Below are positions 16,533 through 23,890 of a stretch of 64,000 bases of DNA, piece after piece; position 1 is the first letter of the stretch; each line of letters starts with the position of its first letter. This DNA is from Marinomonas balearica (GTDB lineage: Bacteria; Pseudomonadota; Gammaproteobacteria; Pseudomonadales; Marinomonadaceae). The notes below the pieces were generated by a model. That model was not told the DNA's origin. It searched no databases and saw only the letters and a program-made list of their open reading frames with translations. The stretch spans positions 1-64,000 of the forward strand of contig NZ_SNXC01000009.1 in assembly GCF_004362145.1 (NCBI RefSeq), read 5' to 3'. The translations under genes were made by a program, and so were the position numbers.

Positions 16533-17681
16533 ATGCAAAGCCCAGTTTATCTCGATAATTCTGCCACTACTCCAGTGGATCCTCGTGTCGCCGAAAAGAT
16601 GATGTCTTGTTTGACTGAAAACGGTAATTTTGGAAACCCTGCATCTCGTTCGCACCTTTTTGGCTGGCGGGCGGAAGAGGCCGTTGAGGAAGCTCGTCTT
16701 CAGGTTGCAGAGCTGATTCATGCTGATGCGCGCGAAATTGTCTGGACATCGGGGGCGACTGAGGCGGATAACCTCGCACTGAAAGGGGTTGCTTATGCTT
16801 ATCGCAAAAAAGGTCGTCATATCATTACCTCTTCAATCGAGCATAAGGCGATATTAGACCCATGCAAGCAACTTGAGAAAGAAGGGTTTGAAGTCACGTA
16901 TTTAAAGCCGAACTCTAAAGGTGAAATCACTGTCGCTTCTGTTGAGGCCGCCATTACTGAAGATACTGTTTTGGTGTCGCTTATGCATGGCAATAATGAG
17001 CTAGGAGTACTAACGGATATCGGGGCAGTAGGAGCGATTACAAAAGAAAAAGGTATATTTTTTCATGTAGATGCAGCCCAAACTACCGGGAAGGTAGATA
17101 TAGATGTAAAGGCGATGAACGTAGATTTAATGTCTCTTACTGCTCATAAATCGTATGGCCCAAAAGGTGTTGGCGCTTTATATGTTCGGCGAACACCCAA
17201 AGTAAAATTAGAAGCCCAGATACATGGTGGAGGTCATGAGCGAGGCATGCGCTCGGGAACGCTGCCTACCCATCAGATTGTGGGTATGGGTGAGGCGTAT
17301 AAGCTTGCTAAGCAAGAGATGGCGGACGATTCGATTCGCATTGCCGAATTACGGGATCATCTTTGGGAGGGGCTTCAAAAATTAGGCGGCGTGCATTTGA
17401 ACGGTGCGAGTGATCAGCGCGTTGCGGGTGTACTTAACGTAGGGTTTGATGGAGTCGATGGTGAAGTTTTGTTGATGTCATTGAATGATGTCGCTGTATC
17501 TTCTGGCTCTGCGTGTACTTCCGCAAGCCTTGAGCCTTCTTATGTTCTTAAGGAAATTGGCTTGGATGATGCTTTGGCTCATGCATCTTTAAGGCTATCC
17601 ATTGGCCGATTTACGACAAAGGCGCAAATTGATTACGCTCTAGATGTTATTACTAATGCGATATCTGCATTGCGTGAATAG
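16533..17681 (+). CDS. iscS: Cysteine desulfurase IscS-like (group I) without the C-terminal tail
   Basis: A 382-residue PLP-dependent cysteine desulfurase. The PLP lysine is Lys206 ([12 protein letters not shown]) and the persulfide cysteine is Cys328 in [17 protein letters not shown], the group-I/IscS context. E. coli IscS has 404 residues; this one ends at about the SIGRLRDL position and lacks the last 20 or so residues known to contact IscU. No iscU, hscBA or fdx gene is next to it. It may therefore supply sulfur mainly for tRNA thiolation and other acceptors. It sits 67 bases after sufE. Confidence 0.92.
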
Positions 17682-17803: not shown

Positions 17804-17914
17804 TTTATCATTTTTGAGAGTATAGTTATTAGTTAATGCTTTTTTCCATGCCAAATGGATTGCTGCATTTGAATGCTTACTTTAGATTGCTCGGTGTGGA
17901 AAAAGGATATTAGT

Positions 17915-18499
17915 ATGACTAAGTCTGAAAAAGTAGAAATCGTTGAAAGTACAGAAAATGAAGCGACGGAAGAACTGTCAGGATCCGTTGAAAAAGCATC
18001 AGAGTCGGCAGCGTCTGAATTGGATCAGTTGCGGAACATTGTATTTGGAGCGGCAAAAGCTGATCTAGACGAAAGAATTCGAGCTCTTCAAAGTGAGATG
18101 AGAGCGGGCTTTGAGCAGGCTACTCAGTCTTTGCATCAGCAAATTTCAAACGTTCAAGCGGCACTGCAGGAAAGTGTTAATTCGTTAGAAGACCGTATTG
18201 GTCAGGTTGACAGTCACTACGATTATAAAACGTCAGAGCTTACTAAGAATATTGAGACGCTCGCCGCGGAAGTGGAATCGAATGACGAGAATAACCGTCA
18301 GTTAGATGAAGCACTTCATAAACGTATTGATGAAGAGATTCAGCAGCTTACCGATCAGTTTACTCAAAAACATAATCAAACAATTGACCTGCTTAATCAG
18401 GTTAAAAAAGAACTTAATTCCTCCAAAACAGACAGAAAAACCCTTGCGAAGCTTTTGGCTACGGTGGCGACAAATCTTGAGACAGAAGAAGACATCTGA
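17915..18499 (+). CDS. Soluble coiled-coil protein, first gene of the GTPase operon
   Basis: I do not recognise a named family. From ATG 17915, which has the ribosome site AAAAGGA, the protein is 194 residues, acidic, and almost entirely helical with heptad-like spacing from about residue 45 to 180. There is no signal peptide or membrane segment, so it should be cytoplasmic. A short motif LDQLRNIVFG near residue 37 is echoed by MEQLRSLVLG at the start of the next protein. It begins a four-gene unit with an OmpA-like protein, a small GTPase and a GGDEF-EAL protein. A scaffold or adaptor role is an inference. Confidence 0.8.
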   Translation: MTKSEKVEIVESTENEATEELSGSVEKASESAASELDQLRNIVFGAAKADLDERIRALQSEMRAGFEQATQSLHQQISNVQAALQESVNSLEDRIGQVDSHYDYKTSELTKNIETLAAEVESNDENNRQLDEALHKRIDEEIQQLTDQFTQKHNQTIDLLNQVKKELNSSKTDRKTLAKLLATVATNLETEEDI

Positions 18500-18507
18500 G
18501 TTTGCCT

Positions 18508-20679
18508 ATGAGCAGCAACAGGGACTCTCAAGCCAGTCAATTTGACGAAAACCAACAGATGGAGCAGTTGCGCTCTCTTGTTTTAGGTGAAGATTGTCAG
18601 ATTGTTCGAGACGTTGTTGAAGAGAGTGCGCGAGATCTTGTTACCAATGTTTTAACGGAAGCGTTGCATGATAGGCAAAAAAACGACGGTAGTGTAACCG
18701 CTGTTATTGCGCCGCTTGTTGAGCAATCCGTAGAATCGTCGGTCGTCGCGCGAAAAGATCAATTTGTTAGTTACCTTTATCCGCTTGTCGGTAGCTTAGT
18801 TCGAAAGTCGGTAAGCTCGTTTTTAGCCGAGATTATTGAGCAGACTAATGAGCTTCTAGAAAGTAGCTTAACCTACAAAGGGCTTAAGTGGCGCTTTGAA
18901 GCTCGACGCGCGGGCATCAGTTATTCTCAGTACGTTGTACAGAAAACATTTGTTTTTCGTGTAGAGCAAGTTCTTCTTATTCATAAAGAAACGGGCATGT
19001 TGTTGAAAACGGTCATTCGGGATAAAACCCAAGCGACTGATGGCGATATGGTGTCCGCTATGCTGACAGCCATTAATGATTTTGTTGCCGACTCGTTTTC
19101 ACCGCAAGAAAACGAACTAGAGCAAAGTTTGGATGAAATTAAAACGGATGATTTCATCCTTCTAATAAAACAGGGTCCTAAAGCCATGTTGGTTGCTGCG
19201 ATTACCGGTAACCCTCCCGCTGGAATCGCTGACAAACTACAGCTTACTCTCGAGTCGATACATCAGATTTATAATGATGAACTAAACGACTACGATGGCG
19301 ATTCATCTGAATTTGAAAACACCGAACAACAGCTTAATGAGTGTTTGTTAGCCCAGCAAAAAGAGAATAAAGCGGAGAAGAAAAAACTTCCGTGGTTAGC
19401 AATCGGGTTATTGTTGTTAGGGTTTGTTGGATTGGTTACATACTTCTCTAAAGGTTGGGAGCGAGAGGGTATTGCAAATGATATTCGCACTTTAAATGCG
19501 CCTCCTGGGATTGTGTTGCTCAGTTCTAAGACGTGTGGTGACAAGGTATGTGTTGAGGTACTGCGAGACCCTGTAGCTCAAGATGTGTCGACTTGGATCT
19601 CAAGTGTTTCTGATATGGATGATATTCTGCTTACCGAGCGAAGTTATCGTTCACTCGATGAAAGGCTACAGCCACAACGACTGAAAAAGGTTGCAAATAC
19701 GTTTGCGGAGCTGCAATTTGATCCTGAAAGTGGAGTATTTCTCGGCAGTTTATCTAGAGAAAGGTACGATCAATTTCAATCTATGATTTCCGTAATCTTG
19801 GAGTCTAAATCTGTACAGGTAATTATGGATGCGGTTAAGCTGGATGAGCATAATGTGTCCAACACGATAGCGCTAAATAAATTGGCGAATAAGGTTCGTC
19901 TGCTTCCTGACGTACCCGGAATTGTACTGCTTAGTGCAGATGTTTGTGCAGAAAGTGTTTGTGTTGAGGTGCTTAGAGACCCTGATGCTCAAAAGGCATC
20001 TACTTGGATTCGTGATATTGGTTCTGAAAAACGAATAAAAATAAGAGAGCGTCATTTTCAAGCGGTTGATGAGAGGTTGTTGCCTAGTCGTTTAGCTAGA
20101 ATCGTCAAAATGTACCCAGAACTGGTATTTGATTCTGATTCATTGCATATAACAGGCTCGATATCTGTGGCTCGGTTCCAAGAATTACGTACTCAATTGC
20201 TCGGCATACCTGAATCAATATCTGTCGATTTTCTGTTAAACGACGTCAGTGTTGAGTCGCAAAGCCTGTCTGAAAGAATGTCAGATGAACTGCAACTAGA
20301 ACAATACATTTACGATATTAAGGCGACAAAAATTCGGTTTGATGTAAACGAAAATCAACTGCCTGATATTGAAATTGAAAACATTAAACGGCTAGGGATA
20401 AAGCTTGATGAAATACAACGTCTGGCTAAAAACGTAAAGCAAACGCTTTTTGTCATTATCATGGGAACGAGTACATCAGGTGGAACCGAAGCGTACAACA
20501 ATAAATTAAGTCTAGATCGAGCTAATGCGGTAATGAAGGCGTTAATTGACGCAGGGATCCCTTCCAGTATTTTAAGAACGACAGGGCTTGGTGTGTTTGA
20601 CCGGAATATCGATACACCAAAAGTGATATTTGATGTGGTCAGGCCATTATCCGAAGAAAATAGAGAAGTGCAGGACTAG
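18508..20679 (+). CDS. Inner-membrane-anchored OmpA-like protein with duplicated periplasmic module
   Basis: A 723-residue protein counted from ATG 18508. Residues 1-292 are cytoplasmic, with a conserved-looking region of short motifs (LRSLVLG; GLKWRFEARRAGISYSQYV; VEQVLLIHKETGMLL) that I have seen in other proteobacterial OmpA-family proteins. A membrane segment lies at about 294-312. The periplasmic part has two copies of a module of about 137 residues (about 332-468 and 469-585), each opening with PGIVLLS, a cysteine pair and VCVEVLRDP. The C-terminal OmpA-like domain (about 605-712) keeps the NKLSLDRA peptidoglycan-binding motif but has Thr at the usual Asp position. The next gene starts directly after its stop, so the proteins probably work together across the envelope. 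Confidence 0.88.
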   Translation: MSSNRDSQASQFDENQQMEQLRSLVLGEDCQIVRDVVEESARDLVTNVLTEALHDRQKNDGSVTAVIAPLVEQSVESSVVARKDQFVSYLYPLVGSLVRKSVSSFLAEIIEQTNELLESSLTYKGLKWRFEARRAGISYSQYVVQKTFVFRVEQVLLIHKETGMLLKTVIRDKTQATDGDMVSAMLTAINDFVADSFSPQENELEQSLDEIKTDDFILLIKQGPKAMLVAAITGNPPAGIADKLQLTLESIHQIYNDELNDYDGDSSEFENTEQQLNECLLAQQKENKAEKKKLPWLAIGLLLLGFVGLVTYFSKGWEREGIANDIRTLNAPPGIVLLSSKTCGDKVCVEVLRDPVAQDVSTWISSVSDMDDILLTERSYRSLDERLQPQRLKKVANTFAELQFDPESGVFLGSLSRERYDQFQSMISVILESKSVQVIMDAVKLDEHNVSNTIALNKLANKVRLLPDVPGIVLLSADVCAESVCVEVLRDPDAQKASTWIRDIGSEKRIKIRERHFQAVDERLLPSRLARIVKMYPELVFDSDSLHITGSISVARFQELRTQLLGIPESISVDFLLNDVSVESQSLSERMSDELQLEQYIYDIKATKIRFDVNENQLPDIEIENIKRLGIKLDEIQRLAKNVKQTLFVIIMGTSTSGGTEAYNNKLSLDRANAVMKALIDAGIPSSILRTTGLGVFDRNIDTPKVIFDVVRPLSEENREVQD

Positions 20680-21174
20680 ATGATCCAAAAAAAAATATGC
20701 ATGTTAGGTGCTTCTGCGGTTGGTAAAACCAGTTTGGTCAAACAATTTGTAGAAGGTATTTTTTCTGATAAATACCTCACAAGCATCGGTGTGAAAATCG
20801 ATAAAAAGAAGTTGGAAGTTGACGAAACTACCGTGCAGCTCATGTTGTGGGATATTGAAGGTGTCGATCGATACGCAGGGTTTAATCCTAAATACCTACG
20901 AGGGGCTGCGGCTGCAATCATTGTTGTAGATCAAACACGCACTCAGTCATTTCTTGAGGGAATCGAAATTTGTCGTTTAGTAAAACTTGAAAAAGAGATC
21001 CCCATTTTTTTAGTAGCTAATAAAAGCGATCTGCCTAAATCAGAATCATGGGACAGTGCCGCTGATTGTGGTGTGACCTCGTTATTTGAGCTCAGTTTTA
21101 GTACGAGTGCAAAAACAGGGGAAGGCGTGGAAGATATGTTTCTTAATGTTGCTAAAGCAGCATTAAACAAATAG
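20680..21174 (+). CDS. Small Ras/Rab-like GTPase (bacterial Rup-type)
   Basis: A 164-residue stand-alone G domain. G1 is GASAVGKTS (residues 10-18) and the switch-I threonine is in YLTSIGVKI (Thr34). G3 is WDIEG (57-61), G4 is NKSD (114-117) and G5 is TSAK (142-145). Motif spacing is that of eukaryotic Ras/Rab proteins and of the prokaryotic Ras-superfamily GTPases. The residue after the G3 glycine, the catalytic Gln in Ras and Rab, is Val62 here. There is no lipidation cysteine at the C-terminus. ATG 20680 abuts the stop of the OmpA-like gene and the next gene starts 11 bases later, so a co-regulated module is likely. It may be a polarity or localisation switch. Confidence 0.92.
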   Translation: MIQKKICMLGASAVGKTSLVKQFVEGIFSDKYLTSIGVKIDKKKLEVDETTVQLMLWDIEGVDRYAGFNPKYLRGAAAAIIVVDQTRTQSFLEGIEICRLVKLEKEIPIFLVANKSDLPKSESWDSAADCGVTSLFELSFSTSAKTGEGVEDMFLNVAKAALNK

Positions 21175-21185
21175 AGGTTGAGAGT

Positions 21186-23285
21186 ATGAGTGCGCTGCTG
21201 TATCAAGAATTAGGAATATTCGATTGTGTCGTACTTAAGCATATAAAAGACGACTCTTTTCTGATTCATTTCGCAAACGATAACTGGTTTAACACTCTAT
21301 TTCCCGGGATGCACGTAGGCGACGAAATCGTATTGGATGACACTCCTTATTATCTGGTTGACTTTTTGTATGATGCCAAAGAATTTTGGGGCTTAAATTC
21401 GCAGGGGCGAATTAATTCGGGTATCTGGAGTGAGCAAGTCGGTCGAAAGGTATTGCGTTTGGAAGCCGCAGCAATATCCAAAAAAGACGAGAACTTCCTT
21501 GTCCTCTTCAATCTTGAGAATGAATACAATAAAAGACAAAGTACGCTACAAATTGCGCGAGAGCTTCTTATTTCGAATGATAAGGTCTTAGAGCAACATG
21601 AAGTCATTCGCGAACGTATCGAAGCGTTAGCAGTTCAGCAAAATAATCGCAGTAGTATTAACTTGCCTGTAACGGAAGTTATTCAAGGAGCAGAGTTTGG
21701 CGTGGCTATCATAAGTCACGAATACCAGCCCATAGAGCAAAATCCTGCGTTGTTTAAGTTGTTTGAAATGCAGGTCGGTGACGGCGGTCAACCAGCAGCC
21801 TTGCTGATGGACTTGTGCGGACGTCAATTTCCTGAATTTCAGCGCATTTTAGATACTCGAAGTCGATGGAGTGGCGAGCTGTATTGGATGAAACCTCCGT
21901 CATTAAGTCGGTGGATGCAGCTTACCGTTTGTCCTATTGAAAGCGAGATCGATGGACTTTATTGGCTTCTTTTAGTGACTGACGTTTCTCGTGAGAAGTA
22001 CCTTCAACAAAGCAATGAGAAGCTGACTTATTTCGATGTGTTGACGAACCTTCCCAACCGTCAATACTATTGGCAATGTTTAGAAAATGCGATAGACGGC
22101 GGTCAGAGCTTTTTTGCAATGCAGTTGGATATTAGGCAACTCAAAACGATCAATGAAGTGTTTGGTTTCGCTGTCGGCGATACGGTGTTGAAAGAGTTGG
22201 CGGAAAGATTGCGCCAACTGATTAGCCCAAACGACGTGCTTGCAAGGATCGGTGGAAATGAGTTCGCGGTCATTTTGCGAGAAGCGCCACATCAGAATTG
22301 TGAGCAGATCGCCAGAAGAATGGTATCTGATATTTGTGCTCCATATTATGTGATGGAAGAGCAGTATAAGTGCAGTGTGGGTGTAAGTATCGGTGTTTCG
22401 CATTTTCCATATGACAGTGTAATTGCAGAAGAGCTTATGAAGTACGCTGATTTGGCTTCTTTCACTGCAAAACAATCTGGGAAGAATGTTGTTCAATTTT
22501 ACTCTCGCGAACTAAAAGACAGCTCATTGCGCCGGATGGAGTTAGAAGCAGCACTTCGTGATGCGATAGAGAACGGAGAGTTTGAGTTGTTTCTTCAGCC
22601 TATTCTCGACCTTTCTACTGGTAAAGTTTCTCAGGCTGAGGCGTTGATTCGTTGGCGGCGTCCTGATGTAGGGCTAGTCTTTCCTGATGAGTTTATTCCT
22701 ATTGCTGAAAAAACGGGGCTTATCATTGCGATTGGGAAGTGGGTTATTCAAGAAGCTTCAAGGTTGTTATCGCAGCTTCATGAGAACGGACAGTATATTA
22801 AGTTGTCCGTAAACTTATCGCCAGCGCAGGTAAGTGACCGATCGCTTTTGCACTTTATTAAAGAGCATATTGAAACCAATGAAGTTGATCCGACTTATTT
22901 GGAGCTAGAGCTTACGGAAGGCGTTCTGGTTAACGACTTTGAGAGAATAAATCACTTTCTTTCTGAGGTTCGAAAATTGGGGGTTAGTGTCGCGATTGAT
23001 GACTTCGGAACAGGATACAGCTCCCTTTCGTATCTACCTAAACTGCCGATCGATTTTCTAAAAATAGATCGCTCTTTTATCGGAGAGTTGATCGATAGTG
23101 AAAGTAATAAGGCGATTGTATTGGCAATTTTGGCAATGGCTGAAAGTCTGAAATTAGGCGTTATTGCAGAAGGTGTTGAAGTTGAATCACAAAAAGCGTT
23201 TTTGAGTAAACATAGATGCCAATCTGCCCAAGGCTATTTATTCAGTCGCCCTGTGCCGTTTGATGAATTTTGTAAGCTGCTTTGA
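21186..23285 (+). CDS. PAS-GGDEF-EAL protein, probable c-di-GMP phosphodiesterase
   Basis: A 699-residue cytosolic protein with no membrane segment. It has a PAS-like N-terminus (about 1-110), a helical linker, a second PAS-like domain (about 165-270), GGDEF (about 280-440) and EAL (about 447-699). The GGDEF signature is GGNEF (356-360), and the usual DxDxFK metal/GTP region reads QLDIRQLKTIN, so cyclase activity is doubtful. EAL (485-487), NLSP, ELTEG and DDFGTGYS (605-612) with KIDRSF are preserved, so hydrolysis is likely. As the last gene of the GTPase operon it may link the GTPase state to c-di-GMP level. Confidence 0.92.
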   Translation: MSALLYQELGIFDCVVLKHIKDDSFLIHFANDNWFNTLFPGMHVGDEIVLDDTPYYLVDFLYDAKEFWGLNSQGRINSGIWSEQVGRKVLRLEAAAISKKDENFLVLFNLENEYNKRQSTLQIARELLISNDKVLEQHEVIRERIEALAVQQNNRSSINLPVTEVIQGAEFGVAIISHEYQPIEQNPALFKLFEMQVGDGGQPAALLMDLCGRQFPEFQRILDTRSRWSGELYWMKPPSLSRWMQLTVCPIESEIDGLYWLLLVTDVSREKYLQQSNEKLTYFDVLTNLPNRQYYWQCLENAIDGGQSFFAMQLDIRQLKTINEVFGFAVGDTVLKELAERLRQLISPNDVLARIGGNEFAVILREAPHQNCEQIARRMVSDICAPYYVMEEQYKCSVGVSIGVSHFPYDSVIAEELMKYADLASFTAKQSGKNVVQFYSRELKDSSLRRMELEAALRDAIENGEFELFLQPILDLSTGKVSQAEALIRWRRPDVGLVFPDEFIPIAEKTGLIIAIGKWVIQEASRLLSQLHENGQYIKLSVNLSPAQVSDRSLLHFIKEHIETNEVDPTYLELELTEGVLVNDFERINHFLSEVRKLGVSVAIDDFGTGYSSLSYLPKLPIDFLKIDRSFIGELIDSESNKAIVLAILAMAESLKLGVIAEGVEVESQKAFLSKHRCQSAQGYLFSRPVPFDEFCKLL

Positions 23286-23482
23286 TACGCAAATGCAATG
23301 ATGCCTGGTTTTTCCCTTGTTTGGGAATTAGTCATGTTTTCTTGCTCGACTGAAAAGTAATCAAAGATTTTTGCTATGAGCATACAATTTTAATAAATAC
23401 ATGCGTATAATCCACGCGCGAAACTTTTTAGATTACAGGCTCAATGTTTGGGTCTGTTAAAAAATACATATTGGAGTTTAAA

Positions 23483-23890
23483 ATGGCGCTAGAACGCACC
23501 CTATCTATCATCAAGCCTGATGCTGTTGCAAAAAATGTTATCGGTGAAATCTACACTCGTTTTGAGCGTGCTGGTTTAAAAATCGTTGAAGCTAAAATGA
23601 TCCAACTGGATGACGAGCTTGCTGGTGGTTTCTATGCTGAGCATAAAGAGCGTCCTTTCTACAAAGACTTGGTTGCTTTCATGACTTCTGGCCCAGTTGT
23701 TGTATCTGTTCTTGAAGGTGAAAACGCTGTAGCACGTCACCGTGAATTGATGGGCGCAACTAACCCTAAAGAAGCAGCGACAGGTACATTACGCGCTGAC
23801 TACGCAGAATCTATCGATGCTAATGCTGTGCACGGTTCTGATTCTACGACTTCTGCTGAGCGTGAAGTGGCTTACTTCTTCGGTAACTAA
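23483..23890 (+). CDS. ndk: Nucleoside diphosphate kinase
   Basis: A 135-residue enzyme that balances nucleoside triphosphate pools using a phospho-histidine. The active site appears as NAVHGSDS near residue 114, and the N-terminal [12 protein letters not shown] is diagnostic. ATG 23483 has the ribosome site TTGGAG and gives a normal length; the frame is open 13 codons further upstream but no suitable start is supported. It starts the conserved ndk-rlmN-rodZ-ispG-hisS block. Confidence 0.97.

Follow-up and report, generated by a model that had tools for sequence, protein, structure and literature searches.

A Group 1 Rup-type GTPase module of Marinomonas balearica and the predicted longin fold of its OmpA-type partner

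What might a small, eukaryotic-type GTPase do in a bacterial locus that also encodes a coiled-coil protein, an OmpA-type membrane protein and a cyclic di-GMP (c-di-GMP) enzyme? We addressed this question with a stretch of 64,000 nucleotides from Marinomonas balearica (contig NZ_SNXC01000009.1, positions 1 to 64,000; hereafter the window), in which four tightly packed open reading frames (ORFs) occupy positions 17915-23285 of the forward strand. The original prediction, made from the sequence alone, had named four packed genes (coiled coil, OmpA-like, Rab-like GTPase and GGDEF-EAL), with the stop of the second touching the start of the third. It holds in both respects: all four ORFs and their domains were found, and the stop of the OmpA-type gene abuts the ATG of the GTPase gene (20679/20680, 0 gap), which in turn lies 11 bases from the GGDEF-EAL gene. 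We consider it probable that this locus is a Group 1 Rup module in which a longin-fold domain provides a docking platform for the Rab-like GTPase, with a tie to peptidoglycan and a c-di-GMP phosphodiesterase as its output.

A conserved gene set around a Rab-like GTPase

The four genes had been put forward as an undescribed system, a claim overtaken by an earlier publication, since the same set appeared in 2014 as the neighbourhood of Group 1 Rup GTPases (Wuichet and Sogaard-Andersen 2014, PMC4316618). According to the accessible part of that paper, these GTPases adjoin three conserved genes, encoding a coiled coil, a "conserved unknown domain" often combined with a transmembrane segment and OmpA, and an output protein. 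An invariant glutamine marks the N-terminal region of the output, which is typically either a histidine kinase or a diguanylate cyclase/phosphodiesterase fusion; the G3 glutamine is absent from the GTPase, and the authors propose that the output protein supplies it in trans. Judged by sequence, the window module is a Group 1 Rup system that agrees with every listed feature, and its gene content is identical to the one described there. The longin-fold prediction, the wider range of outputs, the insertion site and the versions without OmpA go beyond the description in the accessible text, and the prediction for the partner's cytosolic domain seems to be the new point. By 2014, the same text states, no Rup member had been characterised except for the transcription of one in Nostoc punctiforme (PMC4316618); in the open-access literature (subscription journals lay outside the search), we found no functional experiment on a Group 1 Rup module.

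To see how constant the set is, we collected 79 loci with short patterns taken from the window GTPase, a sample that leans to its relatives. A profile recovered the GTPase ORF in 78 loci, and within 4.5 kb of it lay a longin/OmpA-type gene in 70, a coiled-coil gene in 65 and an adaptor-type output gene in 61. Among loci with at least 3 kb of upstream sequence, the OmpA-type partner was found in 58/62 and the coiled coil in 57/62. Record titles place the loci in Gammaproteobacteria, Acidobacteriota, Verrucomicrobia, cyanobacteria, Myxococcales, Nitrospira, Gemmatimonadota, Dehalococcoidia and Desulfobacterales, and a 4-base overlap of the longin and GTPase genes is common. When 851 ORFs were clustered, no non-core gene recurred widely (clusters without core genes reached at most 7 loci). 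The concern that the four genes might rarely occur together is thus answered for the first three, which stand together in most loci examined. The GTPase and the OmpA-type partner are also present in the identical 5 of 56 relatives, and across 398 genomes of the phylum both were found in 47, the partner only in 3, the GTPase only in 2 and neither in 346 (Fisher p 6e-55, not to be taken literally as genomes are not independent). Many of these carriers belong to one family (f57), so that by genus the matches number 18 and 17 of 212, and the two phylum-wide searches used different thresholds (1e-6 and 1e-20). Together, these counts support the view that the four genes are one conserved signalling module.

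Within the genus, the module behaves as a unit. We took iscS and ndk, each with a single match in 39 same-genus genomes, as flanks: their spacing is 122-238 base pairs (bp) in 35/39 genomes and 5336-5879 bp in the other 4, which bears out the earlier claim of an insertion between the Fe-S locus and ndk. The four wide-gap genomes (G000, G010, G024 and G032) are the same-genus GTPase carriers, the GTPase search having covered 35 of the 39. Hence, the module occupies a clean site and is patchily distributed. IscS of the more distant carriers G024 and G032 is 79 and 78% identical to that of the window, about as distant as in most non-carriers, so the module may have been lost repeatedly or gained at the same site. 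A search of viral contigs gave no sign that phages carry the module, since the longin part was not encoded at any of its 33 pattern matches.

The GTPase itself is Rab-like. Its family profile matched Rab-23 first in the PDB (1.4e-39), followed by other Rabs among the matches listed, and its size and Pfam Ras match agree with a Ras-superfamily protein near Rab/Ras/Rho of less than 240 amino acids (aa). None of 81 aligned GTPase sequences has a glutamine at the position of Ras Gln61, where the window protein has a valine. Since the GTPase itself lacks a membrane segment (peak hydropathy 1.11), the longin protein would be its natural membrane platform.

Predicted fold of the partner's cytosolic domain

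The membrane protein runs from N-terminal helices through the predicted longin-fold domain, one transmembrane helix and two periplasmic repeats to an OmpA domain. We modelled it from 57-row alignments (the window and 56 of the 79 loci) that were picked by hand; loci truncated at contig ends, those on the opposite strand and those lacking the gene were omitted, as were some others without a strict criterion. L001, L003 and L004 duplicate the window, L006 and L007 and were dropped from one comparison set. In the full-length AlphaFold2 model, the predicted local distance difference test score (pLDDT) per ten residues was 77-96 over residues 151-280, with a loop (201-210) at 60. Because the Foldseek matches listed for this model were OmpA-type domains, the cytosolic domain was also folded alone (pLDDT 82.5, predicted template modelling score 0.72). 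The domain model consists of helices, two strands, a helix, three strands and two helices; the models thus predict the longin arrangement, in which one helix lies within a run of five strands and two more helices follow at the end.

All matches listed in a PDB search with the domain model were longin or roadblock proteins by title, where we take adaptor, COPI and signal recognition particle receptor chains to be holders of the longin fold. The domain aligned with Sec22b (1ifq; Z 13.0, 2.6 A, 121 residues), VAMP7 (4afi; Z 13.0, 2.6 A, 117 residues), Fuzzy from the Rab23 complex (9rs9; Z 12.7, 2.7 A, 124 residues), TRAPP (2j3t; Z 12.1, 3.2 A, 127 residues), Ykt6 (3bw6; Z 12.1, 2.8 A, 120 residues), a Lokiarchaeal longin (8yqg; Z 10.7, 3.4 A, 128 residues), Mon1-Ccz1 with Ypt7 (9rs7; Z 10.6, 3.6 A, 131 residues) and the roadblock protein MglB (3t12; Z 10.1, 2.8 A, 108 residues). 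Foldseek agreed, reporting adaptor, TRAPP and roadblock chains at E values between 3e-4 and 6e-4, and a structure search with the full-length model had the same longins among its matches. No PAS or profilin stood among the VIA-align matches listed for the domain model, an absence that is not proof. The longin matches extend to model residue ~170, taking in the two helices at the end, whereas roadblock matches end near 150. This difference fits a published helix trade, in which longins swap the first helix of the roadblock for an additional last helix (accessible text of PMC10933270). We therefore predict that the "conserved unknown domain" of 2014 has a longin fold. As no known longin or roadblock profile matches the domain at the sequence level, we call it longin-fold rather than a proven longin homologue; it may share descent with longins or have converged on them, and the predicted fold fits either.

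Small-GTPase binding or regulation is typical of longin domains, though not universal. The window module resembles the eukaryotic longin platforms for Rabs (TRAPP, Mon1-Ccz1 and Fuzzy-Inturned) in the predicted fold of the partner and in its Rab-like GTPase. Unlike them, its partner shows no sequence link to longins, consists of one membrane-anchored chain whose end binds peptidoglycan, and has a putative exchange role. That Fuzzy is among the top matches of the partner domain while Rab-23 is the top match of the GTPase is a suggestive coincidence, as the title of 9rs9 names Fuzzy together with Rab23. Like MglA-MglB, the locus pairs a small GTPase with a roadblock/longin-type partner; unlike MglA-MglB, the GTPase is Rab-like by its PDB matches, and the partner is longin-like and membrane anchored. 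A separate MglB elsewhere in the genome was rejected, as Robl_LC7 has 0 matches there at E<=0.001. The original prediction was right, as judged by sequence, that no such gene is present, but a partner of this kind is probably there as the predicted longin-fold domain. The actinobacterial conservons (Cvn), an analogy drawn in the accessible part of PMC4316618, likewise combine, in a small-GTPase operon, a signalling protein with a partner of roadblock type, yet have an MglA-type GTPase and a separate roadblock, CvnB, neither of which is found in the window module.

Outside the longin-fold domain, an OmpA match was found in 50/57 family members, and the OmpA domain of the window has structural matches with Z up to 15.4. 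The periplasmic unit of ~130 aa stands in tandem duplicate (19477-20283), and relatives L006-L009 (586-592 aa) are too short for both copies; the first repeat has a BON match in 2/57 members at E<=0.01. In three Dehalococcoidia longin proteins (L030, L037 and L051), an OmpA match is missing and a transmembrane helix forms the C-terminus, as in tail-anchored proteins. Because these three and four more lack the OmpA match, the wall tie looks like an add-on to what seems a constant longin core.

Outputs, proposed mechanism and alternatives

The output proteins have an N-terminal adaptor in common, aligned over 68 downstream proteins. These were picked by position, and wrong frames or other genes were kept (L017, L073 and probably L041). 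Even with such doubtful rows included, W81 is found in 63/68 and Q122 in 65/68 rows; Q122 probably corresponds to the glutamine that Wuichet and Sogaard-Andersen point out (accessible text of PMC4316618). From its pattern the adaptor looks PAS-like. The PAS label that the original prediction had put on the GGDEF-EAL protein was not borne out by Pfam, which finds no PAS at E<=1; it has no match for the window adaptor and scattered chance matches in 36 members, and searching the PDB with an adaptor profile gave nothing useful. Two adaptor classes can be distinguished by eye, and L040, L047 and L058 carry tandem output genes behind the GTPase, one per adaptor class.

Behind the adaptor, the enzymes vary. 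Pfam assigns HATPase_c to 34 of the 68 downstream proteins, HD to 9, EAL to 8, GGDEF to 8, guanylate cyclase to 7 and a sigma-54 activator to 6. A constant GTPase and a constant adaptor on varying enzymes would be the pattern expected of an effector domain. In the window protein, cyclase activity of the GGDEF domain is unlikely given its GGNEF signature. The EAL domain has all motifs searched for (EALIRW, NLSP, ELTE, DDFGTGYS, LKID, AEGVE and QGYLFS), which have catalytic roles. In the M. colpomeniae output protein (L007 8503-10602), the EAL letters are absent at the usual place and the other EAL motifs are kept. The switch from envelope to c-di-GMP suggested by the original prediction is a reasonable reading of the window locus, except that c-di-GMP is one of several outputs among the downstream proteins; its suggestion of motility or pole choice is supported by nothing found here.

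The coiled-coil protein has no membrane segment (peak 19-residue hydropathy 0.27), and Pfam gave only coiled-coil look-alikes, all below curated cut-offs. F44 and G45 of its LRNIVFG motif are invariant in a 50-row alignment. The motif is weakly similar to the LRxLLLG near the partner's N-terminus (hhalign probability 30), and with an LRxLLFG-like motif common to both, the two proteins may assemble. We rejected a motor of the Zorya/MotAB kind: the matches are weak (coiled coil to ZorA, best 2.5e-05; OmpA protein to ZorB, 5.4e-04), the coiled coil lacks a membrane segment, and no MotA/ExbB-type stator subunit is encoded in the operon.

From these parts, we infer how contacts, exchange, output direction and wall signal might be arranged. 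The OmpA-type protein would cross the inner membrane once, its outer end holding peptidoglycan, and would assemble with the coiled-coil protein. The state of the envelope or wall, sensed through the periplasmic repeats and the OmpA domain, would change the longin platform. In the cytosol, the longin-fold domain would do for the Rab-like GTPase what TRAPP, Mon1-Ccz1 and Fuzzy-Inturned do for Rabs, namely dock and regulate it, most likely by loading GTP onto it as an exchange factor; a role as a GTPase-activating protein is the lesser option. Gene linkage is what points to a functional tie between the two. The GTP-bound GTPase would then bind the adaptor and alter the phosphodiesterase, such that the state of the wall would act on the c-di-GMP level. 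Because the GTPase lacks the usual glutamine, the adaptor glutamine might complete GTP hydrolysis, in line with the 2014 proposal (accessible text of PMC4316618).

Several observations weigh against this reading. At the sequence level, a PDB profile search with the longin part gave a best E of 0.6, Pfam on the 57 members gave one Robl_LC7 match (E 0.017), and hhalign to a bacterial roadblock profile (two poor rows kept) gave a probability of 2.6; both structure models, moreover, derive from the same 57 loci. The longin gene is not near the GTPase in 4/62 loci (L026, L064, L078 and L079). The adaptor family was recovered in only 61/78 loci, by a profile built mainly on one of the two visible classes. 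An OmpA match is also absent in longin proteins L005, L042, L047 and L056, so a wall tie, as judged by such matches, is not general. Finally, some longins (SNAREs and adaptor subunits) do jobs other than exchange.

The alternative closest to this reading keeps the module and makes the longin-fold domain a GTPase-activating or effector platform, like MglB for MglA, that would bind the GTP form and end the signal together with the adaptor glutamine. The roadblock MglB was indeed matched (Z 10.1), and a GTPase without its usual glutamine likely needs a helper for hydrolysis, for which the 2014 authors put forward the glutamine of the output protein (accessible text of PMC4316618). We consider this alternative unlikely: the best longins (Z 12-13) exceed MglB and cover the last helix, although other longins score 10-11, like MglB, and longin and roadblock dimers are described as GTPase platforms that are mainly exchange factors (accessible text of PMC10933270). 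Should the longin likeness instead be convergence within PAS-like folds, the domain would serve dimerisation or an envelope signal, and the GTPase would work with the output protein alone. Such convergence would explain why a sequence relation to longins is undetectable by PDB profile, Pfam or hhalign, and L064 and L079 do have GTPase and adaptor without a neighbouring longin gene. It sits poorly with a domain search in which the matches listed were all longin or roadblock by title and with the co-occurrence of GTPase and longin gene in nearly the same genomes, and we hold it to be quite improbable. An ordinary c-di-GMP operon, with a GGDEF-EAL protein beside unrelated genes by chance, would account for an EAL protein that matches common phosphodiesterase models, all below curated cut-offs. 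It is contradicted by the insertion of the unit at one site in the genus and by a core set kept across loci and phyla with changing outputs; we rejected a chance neighbourhood on these grounds and give this explanation hardly any credence.

If the longin-fold domain is a docking platform for the GTPase, we would tentatively extend the proposal to a working Rab-longin pair in many bacterial phyla, in which the GTPase is loaded by a membrane-anchored, peptidoglycan-tied longin. Such a pair would correspond in bacteria to TRAPP, Mon1-Ccz1 and Fuzzy-Inturned, with which it might share a deep ancestry, and would be wired to second-messenger and kinase outputs; the Marinomonas version would couple c-di-GMP to the cell wall via a eukaryote-like switch. 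The pairing of a Rab-like GTPase with a predicted longin fold, at a single locus in many bacterial phyla, gives a mechanism open to test. It also bears on the origin of Rab-longin regulation, for which descent of longins from prokaryotic MglB-like roadblocks (PMC3521125) and longin precursors in Asgard archaea (PMC10933270) are considered in the accessible texts.

Coordinates, gene boundaries and variant loci

The features of the locus are collected in Table 1, in which the flanking gene names are those we presume. The start of the coiled-coil gene at 17915 is preceded by AGGA, with an in-frame ATG upstream at 17873 as a possible alternative; the OmpA-type gene starts at TTG 18502 or ATG 18508. 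Promoter-like sites (7 seen, 10.8 expected from shuffles, standard deviation 3.8) and terminator-like sites (9 seen, 4.8 expected, standard deviation 2.2) were not used as evidence.

Table 1. Features of the locus in window coordinates; the last row gives positions on the respective loci
Feature	Position	Strand	Details
Cysteine desulfurase (presumably IscS-like), left flank of insertion site	16533..17681	+	
Coiled-coil protein	17915..18499	+	194 aa, no transmembrane segment; ORF
LRNIVFG motif, coiled-coil protein residues 39-45	18029..18049	+	consensus IRDILFG
Membrane protein with OmpA end	18502..20679	+	725 aa; ORF, Pfam, AlphaFold2, hydropathy
LRSLVLG motif, residues 23-29	18568..18588	+	consensus ELRxLLLG, 57-row alignment
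Predicted cytosolic longin-fold domain, residues ~150-287	18949..19362	+	two AlphaFold2 models; PDB longin/roadblock matches
Transmembrane helix, residues 296-314	19387..19443	+	19-residue hydropathy 2.02; model helix 298-330
Periplasmic repeat 1, residues 326-457	19477..19872	+	internal alignment with repeat 2, score 253
Periplasmic repeat 2, residues 463-594	19888..20283	+	internal alignment with repeat 1
OmpA-type peptidoglycan-binding domain, residues ~605-715	20314..20646	+	Pfam OmpA 2.9e-09 at 633-700
Rab-like (Group 1 Rup) small GTPase	20680..21174	+	164 aa; Pfam Ras 6.8e-30
Switch II start WDIEGVD	20848..20868	+	Val at Ras Gln61 position
Output protein: N-terminal adaptor, GGDEF (GGNEF), EAL	21186..23285	+	ORF, Pfam, alignment
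N-terminal adaptor common to output proteins, ~residues 1-130	21186..21575	+	68-row downstream-protein alignment
Codon of near-invariant glutamine Q122	21549..21551	+	68-row alignment
GGDEF domain, GGNEF signature	22029..22487	+	Pfam 5.4e-33
EAL domain	22548..23252	+	Pfam 2.1e-70
Presumed ndk, right flank of insertion site	23444..23890	+	
Dehalococcoidia longin proteins	L030 6897-7919; L051 6274-7284; L037 1-510		L037 start cut by contig end

Gene order varies among the loci. In L016 and L082, from Rhodothermaceae and Bacteroidetes bins, the GTPase gene is antiparallel to the coiled-coil and longin genes yet still adjoins them, and in L065 the output gene precedes the coiled coil with the set still together. 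The module neighbours of L058, from a bin labelled Tatlockia, cluster with those of the cyanobacterium L040, and mislabelling or mixing is possible. Paired adjacent GTPase genes of the family occur in L018 (5417-6604) and L034 (8001-9133), from Pyrinomonadaceae and Blastocatellia bins. L045 and L064 are two GTPase copies on one Myxococcales contig, one near longin and coiled-coil genes and the other with an adaptor-type output gene only.

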